Shown: positions 1 through 38,782 of the stretch, piece after piece | How the letters are laid out: every line of letters starts with the position of its first letter | Numbering within the stretch: position 1 is the first letter of the stretch | Source: Candidatus Dependentiae bacterium | Lineage (GTDB): Bacteria; Babelota; Babeliae; Babelales; Vermiphilaceae | Direction: 5' to 3' | Assembly (NCBI GenBank): GCA_026389015.1 | Contig: JAPLIR010000010.1 | Location: 1-41,352, forward strand | DNA length: 41,352 bases | The notes under the pieces: model-generated | The model's database searches: none | What the model was told of the DNA's origin: nothing | What the model saw: only the letters and a program-made list of their open reading frames with translations | Made by a program: the position numbers and the translations under genes

Positions 1-3000
1 ATCATCTAATACTTTCTGAACAGCTGTTTTTATGGTGGAATCAGTGGCACTATAGGCCAGAGCTTGCGCTCTTTGTGCCAATTGCCAAGCATCTGATGTT
101 TGACTTAATGCTGCTGCTATTTCACCTTGAGTGCTGGCTTTTTCTACCATCGCTTGCGCTGTTTTTTGAGCATCTTGAGCTTTTGCGATGGCGATTTTTG
201 GGTCGTTGGCGATTGCCATTGCTAGTTCTGCTGGTTTAGCCTGAGCGTTGCGTAGAGTGGCGATTACTTTTTGCATGATCTCATTTGCCGACGCTCTTAG
301 AAGATCATTTAACGATACTGTTGCTGATAGGTCTTGAGCTTTTTGAGCTAATATTTGAGCTTTTTGTGCTGCCGTAATGGCTGCTTGAACGGCAGCATCT
401 GTTGTGGCCGTATCAACCAATTTTTGTGCATTAGTTTGAGCATCTTGAGCATCGTTAATAGCTTTTTGCGCCATACCTAAGGTGGTTAATTGGGTTTGTA
501 TTTTTGTAATAAGTGTATTTGCATCGTCTATAATTCCTTGAGCTCTTGCTTGATCATCTGTTTGAGTGCCAGTTTTTGCTTTTGTCGCCTGCGCTAATGC
601 TGTTTGTGCTTGTGCCAAAGCTGCATTAATTTGGTCAGAGGTGACTGATGTGTTCGCTTGTGTATTGGCAGCAGCTACAGCTCTTTGAGCGTCAGTTACC
701 GCTTGATACGCGGCTTGTGCTGCATCAGTTTTATCATGTGCCATTTTTACTGTTGTGGTTGCATCATCCACTATTTTTTGAGTATCTATTTTAATGGTGC
801 TGTCAGTTGCATTGGCGACTGCGGTTTGAGCATTCATAGCTTTTAACTGAGCATTTTCTGCTTGAGATAAGGCAGCTGCTATGGTTGTTCGCGTAGTTGC
901 TTGGGCTACGGATTGTTGGGCTTCTGTTAGAGCGATTCGTGCTTGATTTAACGCGGCCGTTCTAAATTCCAATACTGCTTGTTCTTCGGCTGCTATTTGG
1001 GCGGCTGCTATATCTTTTTGTGATTGAGAAGCTGCAGCGGCATTGATTTTACTTTGTGCCATGTTTGATGTCGCGAATGCATCGAGGTATACTTGGTGAG
1101 CTGCTTCTACTAGTGCAGGATCCTTTGAATTATTTACTGCAAGGTAAGTATCTTGTGCTAGTTTTAAGGCTGCTTGTGCTTGCTTGAGGGCTGCGAGTAT
1201 ATCGTTCGGATTTGCAGCAGTATCGACTGCTTTTTGTGCGTCGGTTTGAGCTGTTTTTGCTAAAACTATAGTATTTTGAGTTGCTGCTTGAGCTGTTTTG
1301 GAAGCCTGCAAAGCAGTAGTTTTTTTATCTTGCGCCATAGTTACTATTTTTTGAGCATTACTACGCGTATCGTTGGCAGCAGTCTTAATAGTGCCATCTA
1401 TCTGGTTTTCGGCTAATAGTTGGGTGTTTTGAGATCCGGCAAGGACTGTTAGTGCTTGTGTTAATGCTGATTCTATTTGGTCGAGGGATGTTGCTGAGTC
1501 GACCGCAGTTTGTGCTGCTTGTATTGCATATTGAGTTTGAGTCAGCGAGGCTTGTGCTGCTTTTACGGCATTAAATAGGTCTTGTGCTGTTTTCAAGGTT
1601 GCGGTTGCATCGTCTACTGCTTTTTGAGCTGCTGCTTTGAGTGTATCATCTCCCTGTGTGGCTGCTGCATCTCGAGCATTCTTAGCATTAGATAAGCTTG
1701 ATTGAGATGCAGTGACTGCTGCTTGTATAATATCGTGTGTTGTTGCAGTATTGATCACCGCTTGAGCTGCTACATTTGAATTTTGAGCTACTTTTATATA
1801 GTTTTGCACATTGGTAAACCCATTGAGTTTACTTTCTGCTTTACTCATGGTTTGGCCTGTATCAAATAATAGTTTTTGACCCAATGCTTTCAACGTATCG
1901 TCTGTTGTTTTGAAGGCGAGAATATTGGCATTTTGAGCTTTGGAAAGAGCCGATTTTGCTTGCGTTAATGCGGCTTCAATATCTGCTTGCAAAGCAGCCT
2001 TATCCAAGGCTGCTTGCGCTGTTTGTTGAGCATCTTGTGCAATCGTGAGTGCCGCTTGAGCATCGGCTTTGGCTTGTTGGACTGCTTGAGCTGTTTGCGC
2101 TGCTCGTGCTATTTGATAGGCGGCTTGATCTACTTGCATTTTTTGTGTTTGGTTTTGTATGTCATTGATCACGCCTTGTGCTTCATTGAGGGTGCTGGCG
2201 GTTGCTGCTTTGATGGTGGCATCAAGATTGGCAGTCAATGGTGGTAGACTAGTAGCCACTATTTGAGCATCTTGCGCTTGTTTTAACGCATCTTGCGCAA
2301 ACGTTAATGCTCGTGCTAGGTCACTTTGTGTTTGAGCCCATCCTAATTGTGCCCTGGCTATGCTGAGGGCGTTTTGAGCTTTGGCTAGGGCTGTTTGTGC
2401 AGGATTGGCTTGCAGTTGTTCTGTTGTTGCAAGAGCATCTGCTTTGGCTTTTTCATCGGCTAATTGAGCTGCTGCTAGGGCATCAGCTTTGGCATTATCT
2501 TCGGCCGCTTGAGTTGCAGCCAGGGAAATTGCTTGAGCTTTATCTTGTGCATCTTGTTTAAGTTTATCGGTGATCTGAATTTGTTCTATGATTTTGGGCG
2601 TTCCGATGCTATTTAAGAATGATCGATAAAGATCGTATACATCAATACTATAGGCCCATTGCACCAAGTTTGCTAGGCTTGAGTCTGTACCCGGCAGATT
2701 CAAGAAATCATGATCCCAACCTTGTGCGGTTGTTATGATACTGCTCAGTTTTTCTTGTGCTGCTTGTTTTGCTTGGGGACTATTGTTTGAAGTGTACCAA
2801 TAGTTCTGAAGCAGGCTGGATAATTCCATGATATCTTTTTGAAGAGCATCGTATTGAGCCATTTTTGTACGTGCTTTTTCATAGTCTTCTTGTTGTTGAT
2901 TTGCTGCAGCGATCAAAGCTTTTTGGATTAATGGTGCATCGGGATATTTGTTAAAAATTCTTTGGTAGGAATCCAATATTCCAAGTTTATACGTTGGCGC

Positions 3001-4617
3001 TACTAACGATGCTATGTGTGCATCGAGGGTAATAAAATCTTCGTAGCTGAGTCTATCGATTTTTTCTATTATTTCTTCAAATGCAATAATAGCAGGATTG
3101 AGTAAAAAATTGGCAATGCTTTGTTTTATGGTTGCAAGAAATACTTCTTGAGCTTGCTTGGTAAAATTGGCGAATTTTTCCTGGCTGGCATCGGTCATTA
3201 TTGCAGGCAAGGTGCCATATTGTTTAAAGTATTCTAACATGCCCTGAAACCAACCGGATAAGGTTAGCCAGAGAGGCGGCGTGTTCCATTCCATATCAGC
3301 AATAACAGCCTGTAGAAATTGATAGTATAAATCAGTCATCGCTTTAAACCCTAATGCAGTTGAAGCTATATTCTGTCCTTGTGCTTCACTTAATGCTCTT
3401 ATTACGGAAGTAATGGTTGCGTCTTGTAATGTTTGATTTTTTATATCTTGTTGTATGGTTGCCGTAATAGCAGGGAAGTTGAAAGTATTGATAGTAATTT
3501 GTTCTTGAGAAATTTGTTGAGGAGCAGTTGCAGGAGTAGGGGTTGTTGCGACTTGTGCGTCAGCTAATGCTTTTGCTATAGCTTCTTGTTGTAATGCCGC
3601 AGCCTTATCGGCAGCAGCCTTGGCGTCTTGCGCGGTTTTAGCGTCATCGGCAGCTTTTTTTGCTTGTGCATCAGCCAATGCTTTTGTTGTAGCTTCTTGT
3701 TGTAATGCAGCAGCTTTGGCATCTTGCGTAGCTTTTTCTTGAGCATCTTGAGCAGCTTTTGCATTTGCGGCCTGTTTTGCTTGTGCGTCAGCTAGTGCTT
3801 TTGCGGCTTCGTCTTGTTGTAATGCAGCAGCTTTGGCTTGTGCAACTTGTTGTGCTTGTGCCTCAGCTAAAGCCTTTGCGGCCTCTGCTTCTTTTAATGC
3901 AACGGCCTTAGCATTTGCATCGGCTTGAGCTTTTGCGTCTTGTGCGGCTTTTGCCTGTGCAGCTTGTTGTGCTTGCGCGTCTGCTATTGCCTTTGCTGCT
4001 TCTGCTTGTTTTTGTGCGATTTGAGCTTTCGTGAGTGGTTTTAACGCATCTTTAATGGCTTTGAGTGTATCGCTCGCTAATTTTTTTGCTTGAGTAAGGG
4101 CGTCTTTAATATCAGCATCATTATTTAATTTTTTAGTTGAAGCTAATTTGGTGACATCATCCAATTGTTTGGTGATGGATTTGAGTGCGTTTTCGGTTTT
4201 AGCTGTTTGTGCGGCTGTTTTTGCTGTGGTAATTTTTTGTAGTATATCGGTTTTTGCAGCAGCTGTCTGAGCGTCTTTAATTTCTTTAAGAGTATCGCTT
4301 ACTTCTTTTTTTGCTTGGACTAGAGCGTTTTTAATATCAGCATCATTATTTAATTTTTTTGTGAGAGCTAATTTGGTGGCATCATCTAATTGTTTGGTTA
4401 TAGATTTGAGAGTGTCTTCGGTTGTAGCTGCTTGTGCGGTTGTTTGAGCAGCAGTAATTTGCTGAAGCATGTTAGTTTTAACCTTTTGCAGATCTTCTGT
4501 CACTTTTGGGGTTGCAGCTGCGGTTTTAGGCTGAATAACGGCGACCGCGTTGTTTGTCAACGCGGTCAATAGTATAATCATAAAAACGTATTTTTTTGAC
4601 ACATATTTCACAAGCAT
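1..4617 (-). CDS. Giant secreted Ala/Gln-rich coiled-coil repeat protein, C-terminus beyond the window
   Basis: Reading the minus strand from 4617 to the left edge, I checked every triplet and found no stop in 1539 codons. Residues 1-26 look like a signal peptide: basic start, hydrophobic core, likely cleavage after AVA. Residues 66-195 hold two copies of a 75-residue repeat (TLKSITKQLDD...KKLNNDADIK). Residues about 199-360 are TolA-like Ala/Gln/Lys helix (ALADAQAKQAA). Residues about 370-680 are a non-repetitive, helical, Trp-containing domain. From about 700 to the edge run nine degenerate repeats of 80-113 residues anchored on an I..AL.QA..AL..AQ motif. I saw no Cys codon. The ATG at 4617 has AGAGG only 1-2 nt upstream, whereas a GTG at 4611 sits 7-8 nt from it and may be the true start. 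No family is recognised. An elongated surface, periplasmic or released structural protein is inferred. Confidence 0.85.
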   Translation of the reverse strand, partial: MLVKYVSKKYVFMIILLTALTNNAVAVIQPKTAAATPKVTEDLQKVKTNMLQQITAAQTTAQAATTEDTLKSITKQLDDATKLALTKKLNNDADIKNALVQAKKEVSDTLKEIKDAQTAAAKTDILQKITTAKTAAQTAKTENALKSITKQLDDVTKLASTKKLNNDADIKDALTQAKKLASDTLKAIKDALKPLTKAQIAQKQAEAAKAIADAQAQQAAQAKAAQDAKAQADANAKAVALKEAEAAKALAEAQAQQVAQAKAAALQQDEAAKALADAQAKQAANAKAAQDAQEKATQDAKAAALQQEATTKALADAQAKKAADDAKTAQDAKAAADKAAALQQEAIAKALADAQVATTPTPATAPQQISQEQITINTFNFPAITATIQQDIKNQTLQDATITSVIRALSEAQGQNIASTALGFKAMTDLYYQFLQAVIADMEWNTPPLWLTLSGWFQGMLEYFKQYGTLPAIMTDASQEKFANFTKQAQEVFLATIKQSIANFLLNPAIIAFEEIIEKIDRLSYEDFITLDAHIASLVAPTYKLGILDSYQRIFNKYPDAPLIQKALIAAANQQQEDYEKARTKMAQYDALQKDIMELSSLLQNYWYTSNNSPQAKQAAQEKLSSIITTAQGWDHDFLNLPGTDSSLANLVQWAYSIDVYDLYRSFLNSIGTPKIIEQIQITDKLKQDAQDKAQAISLAATQAAEDNAKADALAAAQLADEKAKADALATTEQLQANPAQTALAKAQNALSIARAQLGWAQTQSDLARALTFAQDALKQAQDAQIVATSLPPLTANLDATIKAATASTLNEAQGVINDIQNQTQKMQVDQAAYQIARAAQTAQAVQQAKADAQAALTIAQDAQQTAQAALDKAALQADIEAALTQAKSALSKAQNANILAFKTTDDTLKALGQKLLFDTGQTMSKAESKLNGFTNVQNYIKVAQNSNVAAQAVINTATTHDIIQAAVTASQSSLSNAKNARDAAATQGDDTLKAAAQKAVDDATATLKTAQDLFNAVKAAQASLTQTQYAIQAAQTAVDSATSLDQIESALTQALTVLAGSQNTQLLAENQIDGTIKTAANDTRSNAQKIVTMAQDKKTTALQASKTAQAATQNTIVLAKTAQTDAQKAVDTAANPNDILAALKQAQAALKLAQDTYLAVNNSKDPALVEAAHQVYLDAFATSNMAQSKINAAAASQSQKDIAAAQIAAEEQAVLEFRTAALNQARIALTEAQQSVAQATTRTTIAAALSQAENAQLKAMNAQTAVANATDSTIKIDTQKIVDDATTTVKMAHDKTDAAQAAYQAVTDAQRAVAAANTQANTSVTSDQINAALAQAQTALAQATKAKTGTQTDDQARAQGIIDDANTLITKIQTQLTTLGMAQKAINDAQDAQTNAQKLVDTATTDAAVQAAITAAQKAQILAQKAQDLSATVSLNDLLRASANEIMQKVIATLRNAQAKPAELAMAIANDPKIAIAKAQDAQKTAQAMVEKASTQGEIAAALSQTSDAWQLAQRAQALAYSATDSTIKTAVQKVLDD

Positions 4618-4656: not shown

Positions 4657-5346
4657 TTATTCAGTAATAACAATAGGTGCAGGTTGATTCATATATTCTG
4701 GAAAAGCGTTGTCTATTAATGGTTTTAGTTGTTCTAGTCTTTGACTGAATGCGTTGCGGAAGTCAGAGAACTCAAATTGGGCCATGATCCAAAGTCCCAG
4801 GATAGGGAAGGTAGTCATGATAGCAACATGAAGGTTTTTTAAAGCTGCTCTGTTTTGAGGGGTTTCTGCATTTCTTTGGATTTTTTCTGCCATTGTTTGT
4901 GAGAGGTCATAAATTTTTTGTATAGCAGGTAGGAATGCTTTCATGTCAGGTACCATCGCCTTAAATTTCTTTTCCCACTGTGAAGTTGGAAACTTAATGA
5001 ATTCAATAATAAACGCTTTTATTTCAGGTTGTGCATTCTTAAATTTTGCTAAAGCATCTTTAGCCGCTTCTTTTAATGGTGATGGATAGGTTGCTATCTT
5101 GAGTTGTGATTCGAATGACTTCATCGTGTTATTAAATTGAGTAGTAAAATCTTTGACTAATTTATCTTGTTCTTTTTTTAATCTCTCCAGTTCTTTTTTT
5201 GCTGCTAATTCTGCTGCGGTCTTTTTGACGACCGGTGCTTTAGTTGCTGGCTTTATTACCACAGCTTGTGCCTGAGGTGCACAGAAGGCTAAGCTTATCA
5301 TGGCAATCGAGAATGCTAAGACATGTTTAGGGGATATGTTTTTCAT
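4657..5346 (-). CDS. Secreted helical protein of unknown function
   Basis: This is a 229-residue protein with a clear Sec signal peptide: a basic MKNISPKH start, a hydrophobic core, and likely cleavage after AQA near residue 28. A Lys/Glu/Ala-rich predicted coiled coil follows (residues about 43-75, with runs like KKELERLKKEQDK). The rest is a helical domain containing a hydrophobic stretch around residues 170-190 (IMTTFPILGLWIMAQ), which may be buried or membrane associated. A good ribosome site (AGGAAG, 7 nt before the ATG) supports the start. It lies 39 nt upstream of the giant Ala/Gln ORF on the same strand, so the two probably share a transcript and perhaps a location. No family is recognised. 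Confidence 0.8.
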   Translation of the reverse strand: MKNISPKHVLAFSIAMISLAFCAPQAQAVVIKPATKAPVVKKTAAELAAKKELERLKKEQDKLVKDFTTQFNNTMKSFESQLKIATYPSPLKEAAKDALAKFKNAQPEIKAFIIEFIKFPTSQWEKKFKAMVPDMKAFLPAIQKIYDLSQTMAEKIQRNAETPQNRAALKNLHVAIMTTFPILGLWIMAQFEFSDFRNAFSQRLEQLKPLIDNAFPEYMNQPAPIVITE

Positions 5347-5510: not shown

Positions 5511-6194
5511 TTAGGGTCGATGGTTCATAATTCTTTTTGATAGCGCCACTGATGGAGCGGCCAAGGCTATTGCGGCTAGCTTTATGATATAACTGACGAT
5601 AATAATGTGCAGAATGTTGTCCACGATGCCATAGAGACCTAAAAAGCTAAATAATATGGTGTCGAGTAATTGACTGACGATAATCGATGCACCATTGCGG
5701 ATGACTAAATGGCGATTGACTAGGGCTATCTTGAGTCGAGCATAAAGCCATGAATCAAAGAACTGCACTACTAAATAGACAACAAATGAGGCAATAACAA
5801 TGCGGGGCATGAATCCTAGGATGGCTTGAAAGTGATCTTGCATGGTGTCGCTTGGGCTTGGAACGTAGGCCAGTTGAATTTGCGATACGATACCATAAAA
5901 AGCTAAGAGGCCAAAGCTGGTCCAAATTGCCTTTTTTGCACTCTCTTGTCCAAAGTATTCTTGGAGAAGATTTAAACCCAATACAGCACCGATGGTGAAT
6001 GCATCAGAACAGGTGGCGTTAAAGCCAAAAAGCGTGGTTTGCTTGGTGACAAATATGTTTGCCAAAATGCATTGCACAGAAATAAAGGCAACAAGCGCCT
6101 CTTTGCCCATACGGAGGGCAAGGAGTGCTGATGCGGCAATGAAAAGAGAATGAGCGGAGAAAATTAATTCATTAATCATGTCAGTAACGGCCAT
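5511..6194 (-). CDS. yhhQ: Queuosine precursor transporter (VUT/YhhQ family)
   Basis: This is a polytopic membrane protein of 227 residues with about six hydrophobic segments. The conserved stretch SQLLDTILFSFLGLYG near residues 172-187 and the early NIFVTKQ...FG..ATCSDAFTIGA region match the VUT (DUF165) family, whose E. coli member imports queuosine precursors (preQ0/preQ1). It is the last gene of trhO-murB-yhhQ. Two starts are possible. The ATG at 6194 overlaps murB by 19 nt. The ATG at 6179 (MINELIF) makes a 4-nt ATGA overlap with the murB stop, which favours translational coupling. A queuine-scavenging role is inferred from the family; no other queuosine gene is visible in the window. 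Confidence 0.85.
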   Translation of the reverse strand: MAVTDMINELIFSAHSLFIAASALLALRMGKEALVAFISVQCILANIFVTKQTTLFGFNATCSDAFTIGAVLGLNLLQEYFGQESAKKAIWTSFGLLAFYGIVSQIQLAYVPSPSDTMQDHFQAILGFMPRIVIASFVVYLVVQFFDSWLYARLKIALVNRHLVIRNGASIIVSQLLDTILFSFLGLYGIVDNILHIIIVSYIIKLAAIALAAPSVALSKRIMNHRP

Positions 6195-7153
6195 TCTTTA
6201 AAGCCAATGAGTTGGCACTCAGGTTGGGGAATAATGCCAAATTCTTTTTTGACCAATTCTTGCATGGTGCGCACAAGGTTAACAATATCAGTTGATGTGG
6301 CATTGCCACGGTTTATGAGCATATTGGCATGTTGATAGGATACTATCGCATCGCCAACGGCAAGTTGACCTTTAACGCCGATTTTATCTAAGTAGTAGGC
6401 AACGTAGATCATTTTTTTACCATTACTCATCAAGGTAACTTCATTGTCATGAAAATTTCTGAAAAATGAGCCACAGGTGTGCGTGCTGGGGTATCGTTTA
6501 ACGCGGTGGCGTATAATTTCAATCCGTCTGCCTTGTGCATAGGCCGTTGCTAAGTCGGTTGTCCTTTTAAGCTTAAATGTTGCGTTAAGGAGGTAGTGAT
6601 TTTTATCGAATAGTTTTGATTGGTCGTAACCAAAATTAAACCATGCCGTGGATACTGTTTCAACCAGACCTGATTCTTTATGGATAATCTGCGCGCTGAC
6701 TAAAAATTGCTCAAGTAAGAACTCATAATAGTGAAGATTGATATAGACCGAACCGCCTACAGTACCTGGAATGCCACTAAATTCCTCCAAGCCGACGATA
6801 TTGTGTTCAAGGCAATATAGGATGAGATCATGGATAGTAACGCCAGCGCCGGCTGTAATTTCTACAGATTCTTCATTTAAGCAGTTAATGGTTATTTCAT
6901 TAAGTTGTGGTCTTATGACTAATCCATCAAAACCATCATCACTGATTAATATATTAGCACCTTGTCCAAGTACAAAAATAGCCAGTTTGTGTTCTTGCGC
7001 ATAAAAAAGTGCTTGCGCAAATTCTTGTGCCGTTGTTGGCTCTACATAATTTTTTGCAGCACCACCGGTTCTGAACCAGTTTTTATCGGCAAGCAAAATA
7101 TCGTGTTGAACCACGAGACTATGTTGGTTGTGATGGGGGCTTTGTGTGTGCAT
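6176..7153 (-). CDS. murB: UDP-N-acetylenolpyruvoylglucosamine reductase (MurB)
   Basis: MurB reduces UDP-GlcNAc-enolpyruvate to UDP-MurNAc with NADPH and FAD in the cytoplasm, an early step of peptidoglycan synthesis. This 325-residue protein shows the FAD-domain motifs: RTGGAAKNYVEP at 28-39, GQGANILISDDGF at 63-75 and SGIPGTVGGSVYIN at 126-139. The substrate domain has the proton-donor serine in CGSFFRN (Ser229), and near the C-terminus FGIIPQPECQLIGF keeps the Glu (312). The site that reads YRxS in E. coli MurB (catalytic Arg159) reads YDQS here (176-179), so that Arg appears replaced by Asp. The ATG overlaps the trhO stop (TAATG), which indicates coupled translation. Confidence 0.9.
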   Translation of the reverse strand: MHTQSPHHNQHSLVVQHDILLADKNWFRTGGAAKNYVEPTTAQEFAQALFYAQEHKLAIFVLGQGANILISDDGFDGLVIRPQLNEITINCLNEESVEITAGAGVTIHDLILYCLEHNIVGLEEFSGIPGTVGGSVYINLHYYEFLLEQFLVSAQIIHKESGLVETVSTAWFNFGYDQSKLFDKNHYLLNATFKLKRTTDLATAYAQGRRIEIIRHRVKRYPSTHTCGSFFRNFHDNEVTLMSNGKKMIYVAYYLDKIGVKGQLAVGDAIVSYQHANMLINRGNATSTDIVNLVRTMQELVKKEFGIIPQPECQLIGFKEWPLLT

Positions 7154-8235: not shown

Positions 8236-8260
8236 TTGACAAACTGCTTGTATCTGTCAA
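8236..8260. promoter_or_regulatory. Inverted repeat TTGACA-N13-TGTCAA upstream of the first ankyrin gene
   Basis: Perfect 6-bp arms at 8236-8241 and 8255-8260 lie 45 nt upstream of the ATG at 8305. The left arm is also a consensus -35 hexamer, but no convincing -10 lies 16-18 nt further. It could be an operator or chance. The rest of the 222-nt divergent region with trhO holds only an A+T-rich near-palindrome at 8199-8222. Confidence 0.3.
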
Positions 8261-8304
8261 CATCTCTCCTCTGTATGTTAGCGTTCAATTTTTTGAGGTT
8301 TGTT

Positions 8305-9393
8305 ATGTGTGATTTAAGAAAAATATTTTTGATAGGGTTATTCAATATAGTTTCTGGTGCATTTGCTGGTCAGGGTGGAAGTTGCGAGATTCTCCCATTA
8401 GATAAATATAATCCAGATGTTGCGGATGGAGTATCAAGATTGTTAATGAAGGCGATTGTAGCAAGTGATTATGGCCAGGTTGTGCGGGCTTTGGATTTTC
8501 ATGCTGATGTTAATGCATCAGCAGAGGAAGGAATAACTCCGCTTATGCTTGCCTGCAGTAAAGACAACAGTGATATAGTGAAATTTCTTATTTGTTGTAG
8601 AGCCGATTCCAATATTCAAGATCTTAGTGGTGAGACAGCTCTTCATGTAGCTGCATGTTATAGTGCATACGGGTGTATAAAATTATTGCTTGAATCAGGC
8701 GCTCGGGTTGACGTAAAAAACAATAAGGGTCAGACGCCAGTGGATTTTGCTATGGTGTCTGGTAATTATAAATGTATGGGAGTTCTGGTAAGAAAACTTT
8801 TTGAACCAACCAAGCGTACGGTGACGCCAAAACATTTTATATTTGCACCAATATTGCCAAAAGCGGTGCATGGAGCTCTTATGTTTTCTAATAAAGAAAT
8901 GATAAAAGATTTTCTGAATGGTCCGGCAATGCATTGTGGCGATAACGTTGAAGCGGTAGATGTTTCAACTGGTTCTTGTTTGTTATCTTTAGCCGCAGCG
9001 TATAGTTCTGAAGAAATAGTACAAATGATCTTATCAAGAAGGCCTCATCTTAATAGAAAAAATCGTCTAGGGCAAACAGCTTTGCATCGTGCTGTGTCAC
9101 ATGCTCAGCCAAACATAGTGGAGTTGCTTTTAATAGCTGGTGCTTCTGCTAATATAGTTGATAATGCCGATAGGACAGCGTTTGATATTGTTTGTGTTGG
9201 TTCAGATTTTAAACATGCTGAGTTACGTAAACATTATTTAGAAAAAAAAACATTATTGGTTGATCACATGAAACGCAACATGGCCATCGAGCTTTATAAG
9301 CATACTCCGATAGCAAATTACGACACGCGCGAACAAATAACAAAATTAATTATGGATTATCATACTATCAGTGAGCCACGGCCTCACCAATAA
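8305..9393 (+). CDS. Exported ankyrin-repeat protein
   Basis: A signal peptide (MCDLRKIFLIGLF..., likely cleaved after AFA near residue 21) precedes ankyrin repeats. Good repeats are EGITPLMLACSKDNSDIVKFLI, SGETALHVAACYSAYGCIKLLL and KGQTPVDFAMVSGNYKCMGVLV. After a less regular linker there are further units (TGSCLLSLAAAYSSEEIVQMIL, LGQTALHRAVSHAQPNIVELLL). The last 70 residues are non-repetitive. The ATG at 8305 is chosen because GAGG sits 6 nt upstream; the longer frame from a TTG at 8236 has no ribosome site and would bury the signal peptide. Ankyrin repeats bind proteins, and exported copies in intracellular bacteria are often host-directed, but the target here is unknown. The next gene is also an ankyrin protein, 44 nt downstream. 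Confidence 0.85.
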   Translation: MCDLRKIFLIGLFNIVSGAFAGQGGSCEILPLDKYNPDVADGVSRLLMKAIVASDYGQVVRALDFHADVNASAEEGITPLMLACSKDNSDIVKFLICCRADSNIQDLSGETALHVAACYSAYGCIKLLLESGARVDVKNNKGQTPVDFAMVSGNYKCMGVLVRKLFEPTKRTVTPKHFIFAPILPKAVHGALMFSNKEMIKDFLNGPAMHCGDNVEAVDVSTGSCLLSLAAAYSSEEIVQMILSRRPHLNRKNRLGQTALHRAVSHAQPNIVELLLIAGASANIVDNADRTAFDIVCVGSDFKHAELRKHYLEKKTLLVDHMKRNMAIELYKHTPIANYDTREQITKLIMDYHTISEPRPHQ

Positions 9394-9437
9394 TAAAAAT
9401 TGAGTCGTTAGCACCAGCGAATTTTTAAGGATATTGC

Positions 9438-10160
9438 ATGAAACATAGTACAAAAATAGTATTAACCTTCTCACTCGGAATGAACATGACCGGCCTTGTC
9501 GCCATGTTGCCTTACTGGAGAGTTTCTGAAGCTTTAAAAGCCAATCCGGAGCGATCTATTACACAAATATTTTCTCAAGAATTATTAATAGCAAGTCAAT
9601 CTGGTCAGTTGAATACAATGCAAGAATTGATTGAGATAGGTGCCGATGTGAATTTTCAAGGGGCCGATGGTACTACTGCGCTGCATAATGCATTGCTTAA
9701 TAGGCATCTTGGATGTGTGCAATGTTTGATTAATGCAAAAGCTAATATCAACCTTGCAGATGGTGAAGGTATAACACCACTTCATTGTGCCACAAGTCGT
9801 AATGATGGAGCATCTATGAATCTGTTAATTGAAAAGAATGCTTTCATTGCAGCATGTGATAATGACGGGCAAACTTCAATGCATGTTGCCGTTGAGCAGG
9901 GCTATAGCGATGGTTTGCAGCTTTTGCTTGATAACAATTTTGGTCCTGAGACTACGCTTTGTATTGATAAGGCTAATGCAAATGGTGAGACGCCACTGCA
10001 TTATGCGGCAGATCTTGGGGATGAGCAATGCCTGAAAATTTTGTTGGCAGCAAAAGCTAATGTTAATCTTAGAGCTGCTAGTGGTAAGACGCCATTTGAG
10101 TTAGCGTTTGATCGGGATAATGCCTTATGTATGATTCTTTTATGTTTACAGCAGCATTAA
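9438..10160 (+). CDS. Ankyrin-repeat protein, probably exported
   Basis: This protein has 240 residues. The N-terminus is basic then hydrophobic (MKHSTKIVLTFSLGMNMTGLVAML), consistent with a signal peptide or anchor. About five ankyrin repeats follow, several with the classic G.T.LH.A pattern (DGTTALHNALLNRHLGCVQ, EGITPLHCATSRNDGASMN, DGQTSMHVAVEQGYSDGLQ, NGETPLHYAADLGDEQCLK, SGKTPFELAFDRDNALCMI). The repeats run to the C-terminus with no extra domain. AAGGA sits 8 nt before the ATG. It lies directly downstream of another ankyrin gene, probably in the same transcript. The repeats are more regular than those of its neighbour, so a very recent duplication of the whole gene is unlikely. Confidence 0.85.
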   Translation: MKHSTKIVLTFSLGMNMTGLVAMLPYWRVSEALKANPERSITQIFSQELLIASQSGQLNTMQELIEIGADVNFQGADGTTALHNALLNRHLGCVQCLINAKANINLADGEGITPLHCATSRNDGASMNLLIEKNAFIAACDNDGQTSMHVAVEQGYSDGLQLLLDNNFGPETTLCIDKANANGETPLHYAADLGDEQCLKILLAAKANVNLRAASGKTPFELAFDRDNALCMILLCLQQH

Positions 10161-10289: not shown

Positions 10290-10799
10290 ATGACAAAAAA
10301 ATTAATGTTAGCATTGTTATGTGGCGTAGCTCCAGTAATGTTTAATGGATGCTCATGTCAGACAGATAAAAAAGAAACAAAAGAAGTAACAACAAAAACA
10401 GCAACCACAAAAGAAATGAAAAATACTATGAACGAAATTAAAACTACTCCGTCAGGATTACGTTATCAAATTCAACAAGCAGCACCTGCTGATGCTAAAA
10501 AACCTACCAAAGGTAATAAAGTAACCGTTCACTACACTGGCTGGTTGGAAGATAAAGATGGTCAACCAAATTTAGATAAGAAATTTGATAGCAGTGTTGG
10601 TCGCGCTCCATTCAGTTTTGTTATTGGTGCAGGCATGGTAATTCAAGGCTGGGACGAAGGTGTTATGGATATGGCAGTTGGCGAAAAACGTCGCTTAATT
10701 ATTCCTGGCAATCTTGCATATGGCAAACAAGGCTACCCTGGTGTTATACCACCTAACGCAACATTGATTTTTGATGTTGAGCTTTTAGAAGCTGCATAA
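10290..10799 (+). CDS. FKBP-type peptidyl-prolyl isomerase, lipoprotein
   Basis: This 169-residue lipoprotein begins with a signal peptide ending in a lipobox (FNGC, lipid-bearing Cys21). A Lys/Thr-rich linker to about residue 50 follows. A complete FKBP domain then starts with TTPSGLRYQI. It contains VTVHYTGWLEDKDG, KFDSSVGRAPFSFVIGAG, VIQGWDEGVMDMAVGEKRRL and IPGNLAYG...IPPNATLIFDVELL, which include the usual active-site aromatic and Asp residues. It probably catalyses prolyl isomerisation while anchored in the envelope, helping exported proteins fold. It is a single-gene unit with its own promoter element at 10231 and a strong terminator after the stop. The lspA gene at 23880 encodes the peptidase that would process its signal. 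Confidence 0.92.
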   Translation: MTKKLMLALLCGVAPVMFNGCSCQTDKKETKEVTTKTATTKEMKNTMNEIKTTPSGLRYQIQQAAPADAKKPTKGNKVTVHYTGWLEDKDGQPNLDKKFDSSVGRAPFSFVIGAGMVIQGWDEGVMDMAVGEKRRLIIPGNLAYGKQGYPGVIPPNATLIFDVELLEAA

Positions 10800-32814: not shown

Positions 32815-32903
32815 GGAGAGATGGCTGAGTGGCCGAAAGCGGCTGCCTCGAAAGCAGTTATTCCGTGAAAACGGGATCGGGGGTTCGAATCCCCCTCTCT
32901 CCT
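32815..32903 (+). tRNA. tRNA-Ser, anticodon CGA
   Basis: The cloverleaf is complete: acceptor GGAGAGA/TCTCTCC, D arm, anticodon stem GCTGC/GCAGT with loop CTCGAAA (anticodon CGA, reads UCG), a long class II variable arm with stem TTCCGT/ACGGGA, and a perfect T arm GGGGG-TTCGAAT-CCCCC. CCA is not encoded. The discriminator base is T (32903), whereas bacterial serine tRNAs usually have G there. Confidence 0.95.
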
Positions 32904-36314: not shown

Positions 36315-36818
36315 TTATCTTTTCTTAGCAGTTTTTTTACGTGCTTTTGTTCCAGCTGATTTTTTTGCAGGAGTTCTTTTGACCGCAGATGTTCTTTTTG
36401 CGGTTCTTTTTTTAGTAGACGCTCTTTTTGCAGTAGATTTTTTAGCTTTAGTTTTTACTTTTGTTGTTTTTCTTGCTGCTGTTTTCTTTGAACGAGATGG
36501 GCTTGTCTTAGCCTTGGCAACTTTTCTGACCGCAGTTTTTTTAGCTTTAGCTTTTGGCTTTGCCTTTGGTTTTGCTTTTAGTTTGACGGCAGCTTTTGGC
36601 TTCGCTTTAACTTTAGCTTTAGTTTTAGGTTTAGCTTTTGCCTTCGGTTTTGCTTTGGCTTTTGGTGCAGCTTTTGGTTTTGCTTTAGCTTTTGGGGCAG
36701 TTTTTTTTGCAGTTTCTGTTGGAGCAGGAACCTTGGTTCCTTTTGGGTCTGAAAGAGTTATGGCAATAGCTTCTATCACAGATTCTGGCTTCTTTCCATA
36801 TTTGTCGTCTGTCATCAT
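36315..36818 (-). CDS. Histone H1-like Lys/Ala/Pro-rich DNA-binding protein
   Basis: This 167-residue protein is nearly all Lys, Ala, Pro, Thr and Arg after a short N-terminal segment (MMTDDKYGKKPESVIEAIAI). It contains repeats of the KAKPKA type (about residues 45-100) followed by KKTAAR/KRTSAVKRTPAKK repeats. This pattern matches histone H1 C-terminal domains and bacterial H1-like proteins such as chlamydial Hc2. Such proteins bind and compact DNA. In Chlamydia they condense the chromosome in the infectious form; a similar role here is only inferred. AAGGA lies 6 nt before the ATG. The repeats are likely to vary in length between strains. Confidence 0.85.
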   Translation of the reverse strand: MMTDDKYGKKPESVIEAIAITLSDPKGTKVPAPTETAKKTAPKAKAKPKAAPKAKAKPKAKAKPKTKAKVKAKPKAAVKLKAKPKAKPKAKAKKTAVRKVAKAKTSPSRSKKTAARKTTKVKTKAKKSTAKRASTKKRTAKRTSAVKRTPAKKSAGTKARKKTAKKR

Positions 36819-36974: not shown

Positions 36975-37014
36975 AAAAAAAATCTTAACCCCGCTCGCCC
37001 TGAGTGTTTCGAGC
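36975..37014 (-). terminator. Possible terminator of the hydrolase gene
   Basis: GCTCG (36993-36997) and CGAGC (37010-37014) form a short stem right at the hydrolase stop, followed on the minus strand by GGGGTTAAGA and eight T residues. The stem is short and the T run is displaced. The rest of 36819-37013 would hold the histone-like gene's promoter, which I could not identify. Confidence 0.4.
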
Positions 37015-38525
37015 TATTTTGTAGCGAGAAATGTAACGAATGGGTCGGGGGAAAAGTGACTTGCGATTGTAAGATTTTTTAGATCCGACCCTTCGATACT
37101 ATTCTCTTCGAGATCTTCATGCCTTTTGGATTCTTTTGCAGCCAATCGAGCAGCTTTTCTGAGCTGTTTTCTTTGTTTTTTGGTGCAATTTCGACGTTTA
37201 AGACGAGCTTGTAAGCTCCATTCGTCTTGATAAAACTCATGAGCTTTTATGTACGATTGGCGTATGCGTTCTTTGTATGCTTCCACGGTAAAACCTTCAG
37301 GGGCATATTCGAGTGCCATTGCCTGCATTCTTTTAAAGTCATGGCGTGGAATGAATTTTACGACCGTATAAAATTTATTTTTCTTTACGTTTTTTATCAG
37401 CGTTATGCCGTGTTCCGGACGCATATCAACAATGACGGGATATTTAGGAGATAATTGATCTTCAATATCTTGCACGCTTTTCAAGATGAAGGGCAGAATA
37501 GCTACGGTCGGCAATGGGTTGAGGGCAAATGATTGCCGATAATGGGTTGGTGACCATCCAAAAGCCCAGAGCTCGGCATGCCCAGGTGATGAATTTCTGA
37601 GTAAGTGAGATTTACCCGAAACAATGGCAGGATTATCCATGTTGAGCGTTAATTTAAACTTTTTAGGATTTGATCGTGCAGCAGCACTGCTTCGTGTGAG
37701 TTTAAGCTGTATCTGTACTAATTTTTTTGGTAATTTGAATCCTGTGCGTTCTTCAAAAATTCGTCGTGAAAACAGGCGAGTGTACGAAAAGAAATCTAGT
37801 TTTTGAATGCGGTCGCTGTTTGAATAAATGTTATAGACACGTTTAAAAACATCATCATTAACTAAATAATCGGTTTCTTTTTGTATGGGGACACCAAGAA
37901 GTACTGCTTCATCAATAACAAGATTTTTGTCGACTGGCATTTTTTGACGTACGGCACCAAGATTGAGTACTACATTGCCACCGTGACTGTAACCAATAAC
38001 CCGTATTTTAGGGGTAATGCCTTGTTTTTTGAACTGCTGTATTTCTTGTTGGATACTGTTATAAAGGCCAAAGGCGTCTTTATAGCGATTGGTAGGACTC
38101 AAAAGGCCTGACCAGCCATAGGTGTAATAATGATTTTCTATAGATGGCCCATGACTCAAAAGGGTTACTTCATCCAATATTTTTGCCAAAGCACTAGTTG
38201 CCTCTCCCTGGCCGGTTTTTTCTTTATCTACTCTATGAAGACCAAAGCCTTGCATCGCCTGGTTTTGATAGAAGTGGGGGTCCTGACGCATGATTTCTAC
38301 GGTTTTTGCATAGGTGGTATTTTCAACATCATCACGCATAAATCTGAGGAAATTGCTGATAGTCAGGTGGGGTTGGATACTCATAATGCCATGTACAAAA
38401 AAGGTAAGCCAGACTTGGCGCGGCTGCGTGACTATGGGCTGCTCGTTTTGAGCGCACAGAGGCGAATTAGCCAACGTTATGGCTAGTGCCGCAAGTAAGC
38501 AATATGCTAAATTTGTACGTTTCAT
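37014..38525 (-). CDS. Exported alpha/beta-hydrolase (lipase-like)
   Basis: This protein of about 503 residues starts with a signal peptide (MKRTNLAYCLLAALAITLANS, likely cleaved after LCA). The core has an early oxyanion-type strand VWLTFFVHGIM, a nucleophile elbow GYSHGGNVVLNLG with the catalytic Ser, and later candidates for the acid and His. This fits a lipase or esterase of the alpha/beta-hydrolase class. The C-terminal 90 residues are very basic (LKRRNCTKKQRKQLRKAARL) and then acidic, which is unusual. Two ATGs are possible: 38525, which puts the signal peptide at the N-terminus, and 38555, ten codons earlier. Neither has a clean ribosome site. The substrate is unknown; host lipids would fit the lifestyle but are not shown. 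Confidence 0.8.
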   Translation of the reverse strand: MKRTNLAYCLLAALAITLANSPLCAQNEQPIVTQPRQVWLTFFVHGIMSIQPHLTISNFLRFMRDDVENTTYAKTVEIMRQDPHFYQNQAMQGFGLHRVDKEKTGQGEATSALAKILDEVTLLSHGPSIENHYYTYGWSGLLSPTNRYKDAFGLYNSIQQEIQQFKKQGITPKIRVIGYSHGGNVVLNLGAVRQKMPVDKNLVIDEAVLLGVPIQKETDYLVNDDVFKRVYNIYSNSDRIQKLDFFSYTRLFSRRIFEERTGFKLPKKLVQIQLKLTRSSAAARSNPKKFKLTLNMDNPAIVSGKSHLLRNSSPGHAELWAFGWSPTHYRQSFALNPLPTVAILPFILKSVQDIEDQLSPKYPVIVDMRPEHGITLIKNVKKNKFYTVVKFIPRHDFKRMQAMALEYAPEGFTVEAYKERIRQSYIKAHEFYQDEWSLQARLKRRNCTKKQRKQLRKAARLAAKESKRHEDLEENSIEGSDLKNLTIASHFSPDPFVTFLATK

Positions 38526-38782
38526 AGCCCCTAATCTTTCCACTTTTCTACCCATCTTTGTTTACTAGTATCTTATCTTTAATGTTACCCAAAAAACCAT
38601 CATATTGTGATTGGCTTTTATCATCTTATTCTGTTTGTGCTCACAGAATGAAAATGTGCTTAAAAAGAGTGTATCACAAATAAATTCAAATTTCAAATTG
38701 AATTTGGGAATATGGGTATTAATGCGGAGAAAGGCTTTATATTCTATCGATTGGGGGGGCGGTAGCGGACCTTTTGAGTCTA

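Follow-up and report, generated by a model that had tools for sequence, protein, structure and literature searches.

What protein is encoded by the long open frame at the left edge of this window, and what could it do for the bacterium that carries it? The window is the whole of a 41,352-base contig (C10) of a draft genome of 1.33 Mb in 29 contigs. The PheT encoded in the window is 39-51% identical to the PheT of Candidatus Dependentiae and Babeliales genomes, which places the source organism among the Dependentiae; by analogy with the described members, it is most likely an intracellular protist parasite (PMC6561590, PMC4378268). As a group these parasites are poorly understood, and the way in which they contact and remodel their hosts is largely obscure.

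The first-pass annotation had described an uninterrupted minus-strand frame of 1539 codons from 4617 to the left edge, starting with a signal peptide and open at the window edge, so that its full size could not be stated. All of this was borne out by reading of the frame and its coding signal, and the following features were assigned to it:

1..4617, minus strand: N-terminal 1539 residues of a giant exported repeat protein; open frame with gene-like codon use that runs past the contig edge.
4540..4611, minus strand: signal peptide, likely from GTG 4611, MKYVSKKYVFMIILLTALTNNAVA, cleaved before V; assigned by sequence inspection, the Shine-Dalgarno sequence and a hydropathy peak at residue 10.

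The frame is ended by the contig edge, not by a stop codon. Under the base composition of the region an open run of 1539 codons has a chance of about 1e-37, and each of the remaining five frames contains 80-111 stops over the same interval. The GC content at the three codon positions (57/43/27%) fits a real gene of this genome, and codon usage is similar to that of the other genes of the window. The start codon is probably GTG 4611 (codon 3) rather than ATG 4617; it is favoured because a good Shine-Dalgarno sequence, AAGAGGA (4624-4618), is placed 6 nt ahead of this in-frame codon. On inspection the signal peptide consists of a Lys-rich start, the hydrophobic core VFMIILLTAL and a cleavage site between AVA and V.

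Alanine and glutamine account for 30% and 12% of residues 31-370 and for 26% and 13% of residues 691-1539. In residues 371-690 the alanine content is 11%. Three repetitive or low-complexity parts were delimited:

4000..4491, minus strand: N-terminal pair of 75-residue helical repeats, residues 43-206; found as a tandem repeat and by autocorrelation.
3508..3999, minus strand: TolA-like, Ala/Lys/Gln-rich helical linker, residues 207-370; assigned by composition and a sub-threshold TolA match.
1..2400, minus strand: C-terminal array of nine repeats of about 88 residues, predicted three-helix bundles, residues 740-1539; assigned by profile matches and AlphaFold2.

The N-terminal pair is a tandem repeat of period 225 with 83% matches and an autocorrelation signal at lag 75, its two segments covering residues 43-122 and 118-206. 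In the C-terminal array the units are about 84-90 residues long, with bounds set by an iterated profile, and the ninth is cut by the contig edge. Within this genome the same profile identified 20 units, spread over three frames: these nine, four in a frame on contig C21 (about 13 together if both frames belong to one gene, see below) and seven in a paralogue on contig C15. Between units of the C10 array, and likewise between those of the C21 array, identity is about 34%; in the C15 paralogue it is 60%. As a control, a model trained on the seven repeats of the paralogue alone was scored with composition correction against 300 shuffled sequences. The C10 array obtained 54.9 bits and the C21 array 44.8 bits, whereas all 300 shuffles stayed below -29; uncorrected shuffles reach 151 bits, so only the corrected scores count. 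The N-terminal region fits the C-terminal repeat model by composition only (-47 bits once corrected), and it was therefore classed as a separate 75-residue repeat followed by a linker.

The AlphaFold2 model of three units, computed from 13 aligned rows, had a pLDDT of 95.5. It predicts helices at 25-50, 55-104, 109-134, 139-189 and 193-218. Short helices (about 26 residues) thus alternate with long ones (about 50 residues), and the long ones extend from each unit into its neighbour. The model thus gives good support to an array of three-helix bundles linked by continuous helices, which would form a long rod. The structure prediction for the repeats had been proposed in the first-pass annotation, which took the Ala/Gln-rich segments for heptad-like repeats of a fibre. 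The helical repeats stood, but the heptad-like fibre gave way to units of about 88 residues predicted as three-helix bundles with shared helices, and on the same model a simple coiled coil was dropped for the Ala/Gln region.

Between the linker and the array lies a stretch of different character:

2548..3507, minus strand: central domain, residues 371-690; low in alanine, with no Pfam match above cut-off and no PDB sequence match.
3223..3471, minus strand: part of the central domain in common with the C15 paralogue, with the motif LY...P-LWL...WF..M..Y; found by alignment.

The composition (low alanine over residues of about 370-690) agrees with the earlier description of a distinct central domain, and the profile search that had been suggested for it returned no known family above the curated cut-off, in line with the claim of an unrecognised family. 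The domain is not wholly unique, however: about 85 residues recur in the C15 paralogue of the same genome, with an alignment score of 81 compared with 33 ± 5 for shuffled sequences, and none of 500 shuffles reached this value. It was not found in genome contigs, viral contigs or phages. Weak Pfam matches to Ferritin, ThylakoidFormat and RPN13_C were below their cut-offs and were rejected. So was a weak match to the shared module in another genome (G096; E 4e-4, 45 residues): its frame looks like that of an exported protein of the alpha/beta-hydrolase type, and the match was put down to chance. The model obtained for the central domain is of low quality (pLDDT 59) and does not allow a binding function to be deduced.

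The C15 paralogue is complete and exported. It has 1,647 residues (contig C15, 63568-68511; L006:3568-8511) and contains seven repeats of 88 residues and a central module related to that of the giant protein, together with two copies, 91% identical to each other, of a Tyr-rich C-terminal domain of about 130 residues, for which no confident match was obtained in about 50 relatives (44-51 genomes). Judged by sequence, the giant protein and its paralogue have the rod and the core module in common and differ at their ends.

Where, then, is the missing end? The search beyond the window edge for a stop and a C-terminal anchor, as proposed in the first-pass annotation, yielded a probable C-terminus but no anchor. 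In the same genome, contig C21 starts with a frame of 476 residues that is open at the left contig end, stops at 1433 and holds four copies of the giant-protein repeat. The C10 and C21 frames point into each other, and the last unit on C10 stops at profile position 67, whereas the first unit on C21 starts at position 15, which leaves about 36 residues in the gap if nothing else is missing. No sequence overlap between the two contig ends was found, and we therefore infer the junction from other evidence, to which the following genes contribute:

4657..5346, minus strand: exported protein of 229 residues upstream of the giant gene, with a signal peptide and the Shine-Dalgarno sequence AAGGAAG; gap to the giant gene about 40 nt.
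5511..6194, minus strand: QueT-type queuosine precursor transporter, conserved locus anchor (TIGR00697, 2.7e-49).
6176..7153, minus strand: MurB, conserved locus anchor; family match and MurB-then-Tgt order in relatives.

MurB and Tgt are both present in 25 relatives, in 17 of which they lie on one contig and the same strand with MurB first, and the QueT transporter is located between them in 10 of the 11 loci checked. On C10, MurB, QueT, the 229-residue gene and the giant gene are all directed outwards. On C21 the C-terminal piece comes first and is followed on the same strand by Tgt at 3232. The gene order in relatives thus places C21 beside C10 independently of the repeat. It is very unlikely that the two frames are different paralogues and that the C10 protein ends elsewhere: the lack of overlap and the similarity of C10 to C21 units (33.9% identity, no closer than either is to C15) would suit two genes, but orientation, repeat phase and the MurB-QueT-Tgt order all suit one, and in the whole assembly just a single truncated 5' piece and a single truncated 3' piece are present.

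On these sequence comparisons the C21 piece is probably the missing end of the giant protein, whose full length would be at least about 2,050 residues. The two pieces together comprise 2,015 residues (214 kDa without the gap, pI 5.3) and contain no cysteine. No second hydrophobic segment was seen in these 2,015 residues, and neither a hydrophobic segment nor a sorting motif was found in the C21 piece. It is closed by a C-terminal domain of about 135 residues, the last 62 of which gave no confident relative in 44-51 genomes.

In relatives the interval between MurB and Tgt is filled by other genes, several of them with visible signal peptides, so that the giant gene occupies a variable locus. 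Different exported genes occur at this site in the Dependentiae loci compared (L054-L064), one of which (L055) encodes at least three proteins starting with MKQIK(A/T)L. The 229-residue protein is encoded in a single copy and belongs to no family above cut-off; its gene is possibly an operon partner of the giant gene, co-transcribed with it. Its mature N-terminus (VVIKPATKAP) is similar to the VIQPKTAAAT at the corresponding point of the giant protein. Farther along the window there are two adjoining ankyrin-repeat genes (8236-10160), followed by a gene for an FKBP-type isomerase (10290-10799). The only tRNA gene is that for tRNA-Ser (cga) at 32815-32903. A Lys/Ala-rich protein of 167 residues with AKPKAKAKPK repeats (36315-36818) is reminiscent of histone H1-like tails, and an exported protein of 513 residues (37014-38555) may be a lipase or alpha/beta-hydrolase, judging from its GYSHGG motif; it had no NCBIfam match.

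The distribution of the protein is narrow. The repeat profile had no match in 85 relatives and none in plasmids, and in a search of 101 genomes of the phylum two others showed marginal matches (E 0.006-0.007). Neither the whole protein nor the central domain had a clear homologue in 51 relatives, and no Pfam or NCBIfam family reached its cut-off with the rod repeat or the central part. The matches that came up at E 0.02-0.1 (L008-L011) are probably due to chance; the one in genome G017 lies inside a conserved, cytosolic-type frame of 843 residues, which is not a similar protein. By these sequence criteria the repeat and the central domain count as orphans within the phylum. Beyond it they are only likely to be orphans, since profile-sensitive searches do not span all bacteria.

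What could such a protein do? The signal peptide, the lack of any other membrane segment, the presence of two secretins in the genome, which means that a route for export across the outer membrane exists, the long rod and the restriction to one lineage led us to infer an exported rod. We propose, with about as much doubt as conviction, that it is a lineage-specific spacer or adhesive rod that acts outside the inner membrane, where it would touch the protist host. The Sec system would export the protein, whose length is at least about 2,050 residues, and its signal would be cleaved. The mature form would consist, in this order, of two short helical repeats, the TolA-like linker, the central helical domain, about 13 bundles and the C-terminal domain of about 135 residues. 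The rod, about 50 nm long and similar in plan to spectrin or Ebh, would keep the central and C-terminal domains apart, either at the cell surface or after release into the host, and the central module, which is kept in the paralogue, would be the likeliest binding part. In favour of this reading, 44% of the proteins of C. destructans carry signal peptides, and these are enriched among proteins of unknown function (PMC6561590). The two giant exported rods, so far seen in a single lineage, would be concrete candidates for lineage-specific parts of host contact, the more so as the gene studied here occupies a site at which relatives have other exported genes.

The giant protein showed no outer-membrane anchor, no autotransporter barrel and no wall-sorting motif, so it could be retained in the periplasm and might be a spacer or organizer of the envelope, of the TolA type or like a lipoprotein spacer, that never meets the host. 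A signal peptide combined with no visible outer-membrane anchor would suit such a role, as would the Ala/Lys/Gln/Asp-rich helical linker with its sub-threshold match to TolA and the likewise exported upstream neighbour. We regard this as unlikely. A normal periplasm is narrower than the predicted 50-nm rod, and occurrence in one species among about 100 members of the phylum would be unusual for a core part of the envelope. The likeness to TolA is also limited: where TolA has a membrane anchor the protein has a cleavable signal, the C-terminal domain of TolA is absent, and the score of 17.3 bits is far under the curated cut-off of 59.45.

It also seems improbable that the protein is released as an effector whose rod carries a central domain acting inside the protist. 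Dependentiae secrete many repeat proteins that are thought to be effectors (PMC6561590, PMC4378268), ankyrin proteins are encoded nearby on both C10 and C21, and the corresponding interval of relatives carries different exported genes. Against this, no enzymatic motif or eukaryote-like domain was recognized in the giant protein, and its central domain matches no family. The giant protein itself gave no Ank match; ankyrin repeats are present in nearby genes.

Close architectural parallels to the spacer or adhesive rod proposed above are the giant staphylococcal surface proteins Ebh and Embp. The repeats of Embp are composed of two three-helix bundles, which in the FG-repeat are joined by a shared helix (PMC7587433). 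In these proteins, as predicted for the giant protein, a signal peptide is followed by tandem three-helix bundles that share long helices and form a rod. However, the unit has 88 residues and is rich in alanine and glutamine, in contrast to the 125-170 residues of Ebh/Embp units, there is no C-terminal transmembrane part or wall anchor, and the host of the gene is a Gram-negative-type intracellular parasite. With hmmscan, neither FIVAR nor GA was among the families listed for the whole protein and the 20 units, and DUF1542 appeared in two of the 20 units at chance level (best E 2.4). The predicted helix pattern also fits the spectrin repeats of spectrin, plectin and nesprin, which are tandem three-helix repeats with a helix continuous into the next unit, but the giant protein is an exported bacterial protein with no spectrin sequence match: no spectrin family was listed among the Pfam matches, and no spectrin chain was found in the PDB profile search. 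Foldseek searches of the repeat model against the PDB gave nothing at E <= 0.001, the plectin and beta2-spectrin repeats being among the weak natural matches and not significant (E 0.23 and 0.51, TM 0.36 and 0.23), and nothing significant came from a library of viral structures. As far as the structural model goes, the protein resembles spectrin and Ebh in architecture, but its membership in either family is not supported.

We tentatively suggest that the protein represents a new repeat family of one Dependentiae lineage, which could have reached the spectrin/Ebh plan independently and would serve as a surface or host-inserted rod that bears a new binding domain; at least two paralogues, differing in their end domains, would belong to it. 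Designed helical repeat proteins (such as 5cwm and the DHF38 filament) headed both the PDB search with the repeat profile (E 7e-10), in which most matches were designed proteins, and the Foldseek search, a match that reflects idealized Ala-rich helix patterns and not descent. The repeat would be a natural case of near-ideal helical repeats similar to those of designed proteins.
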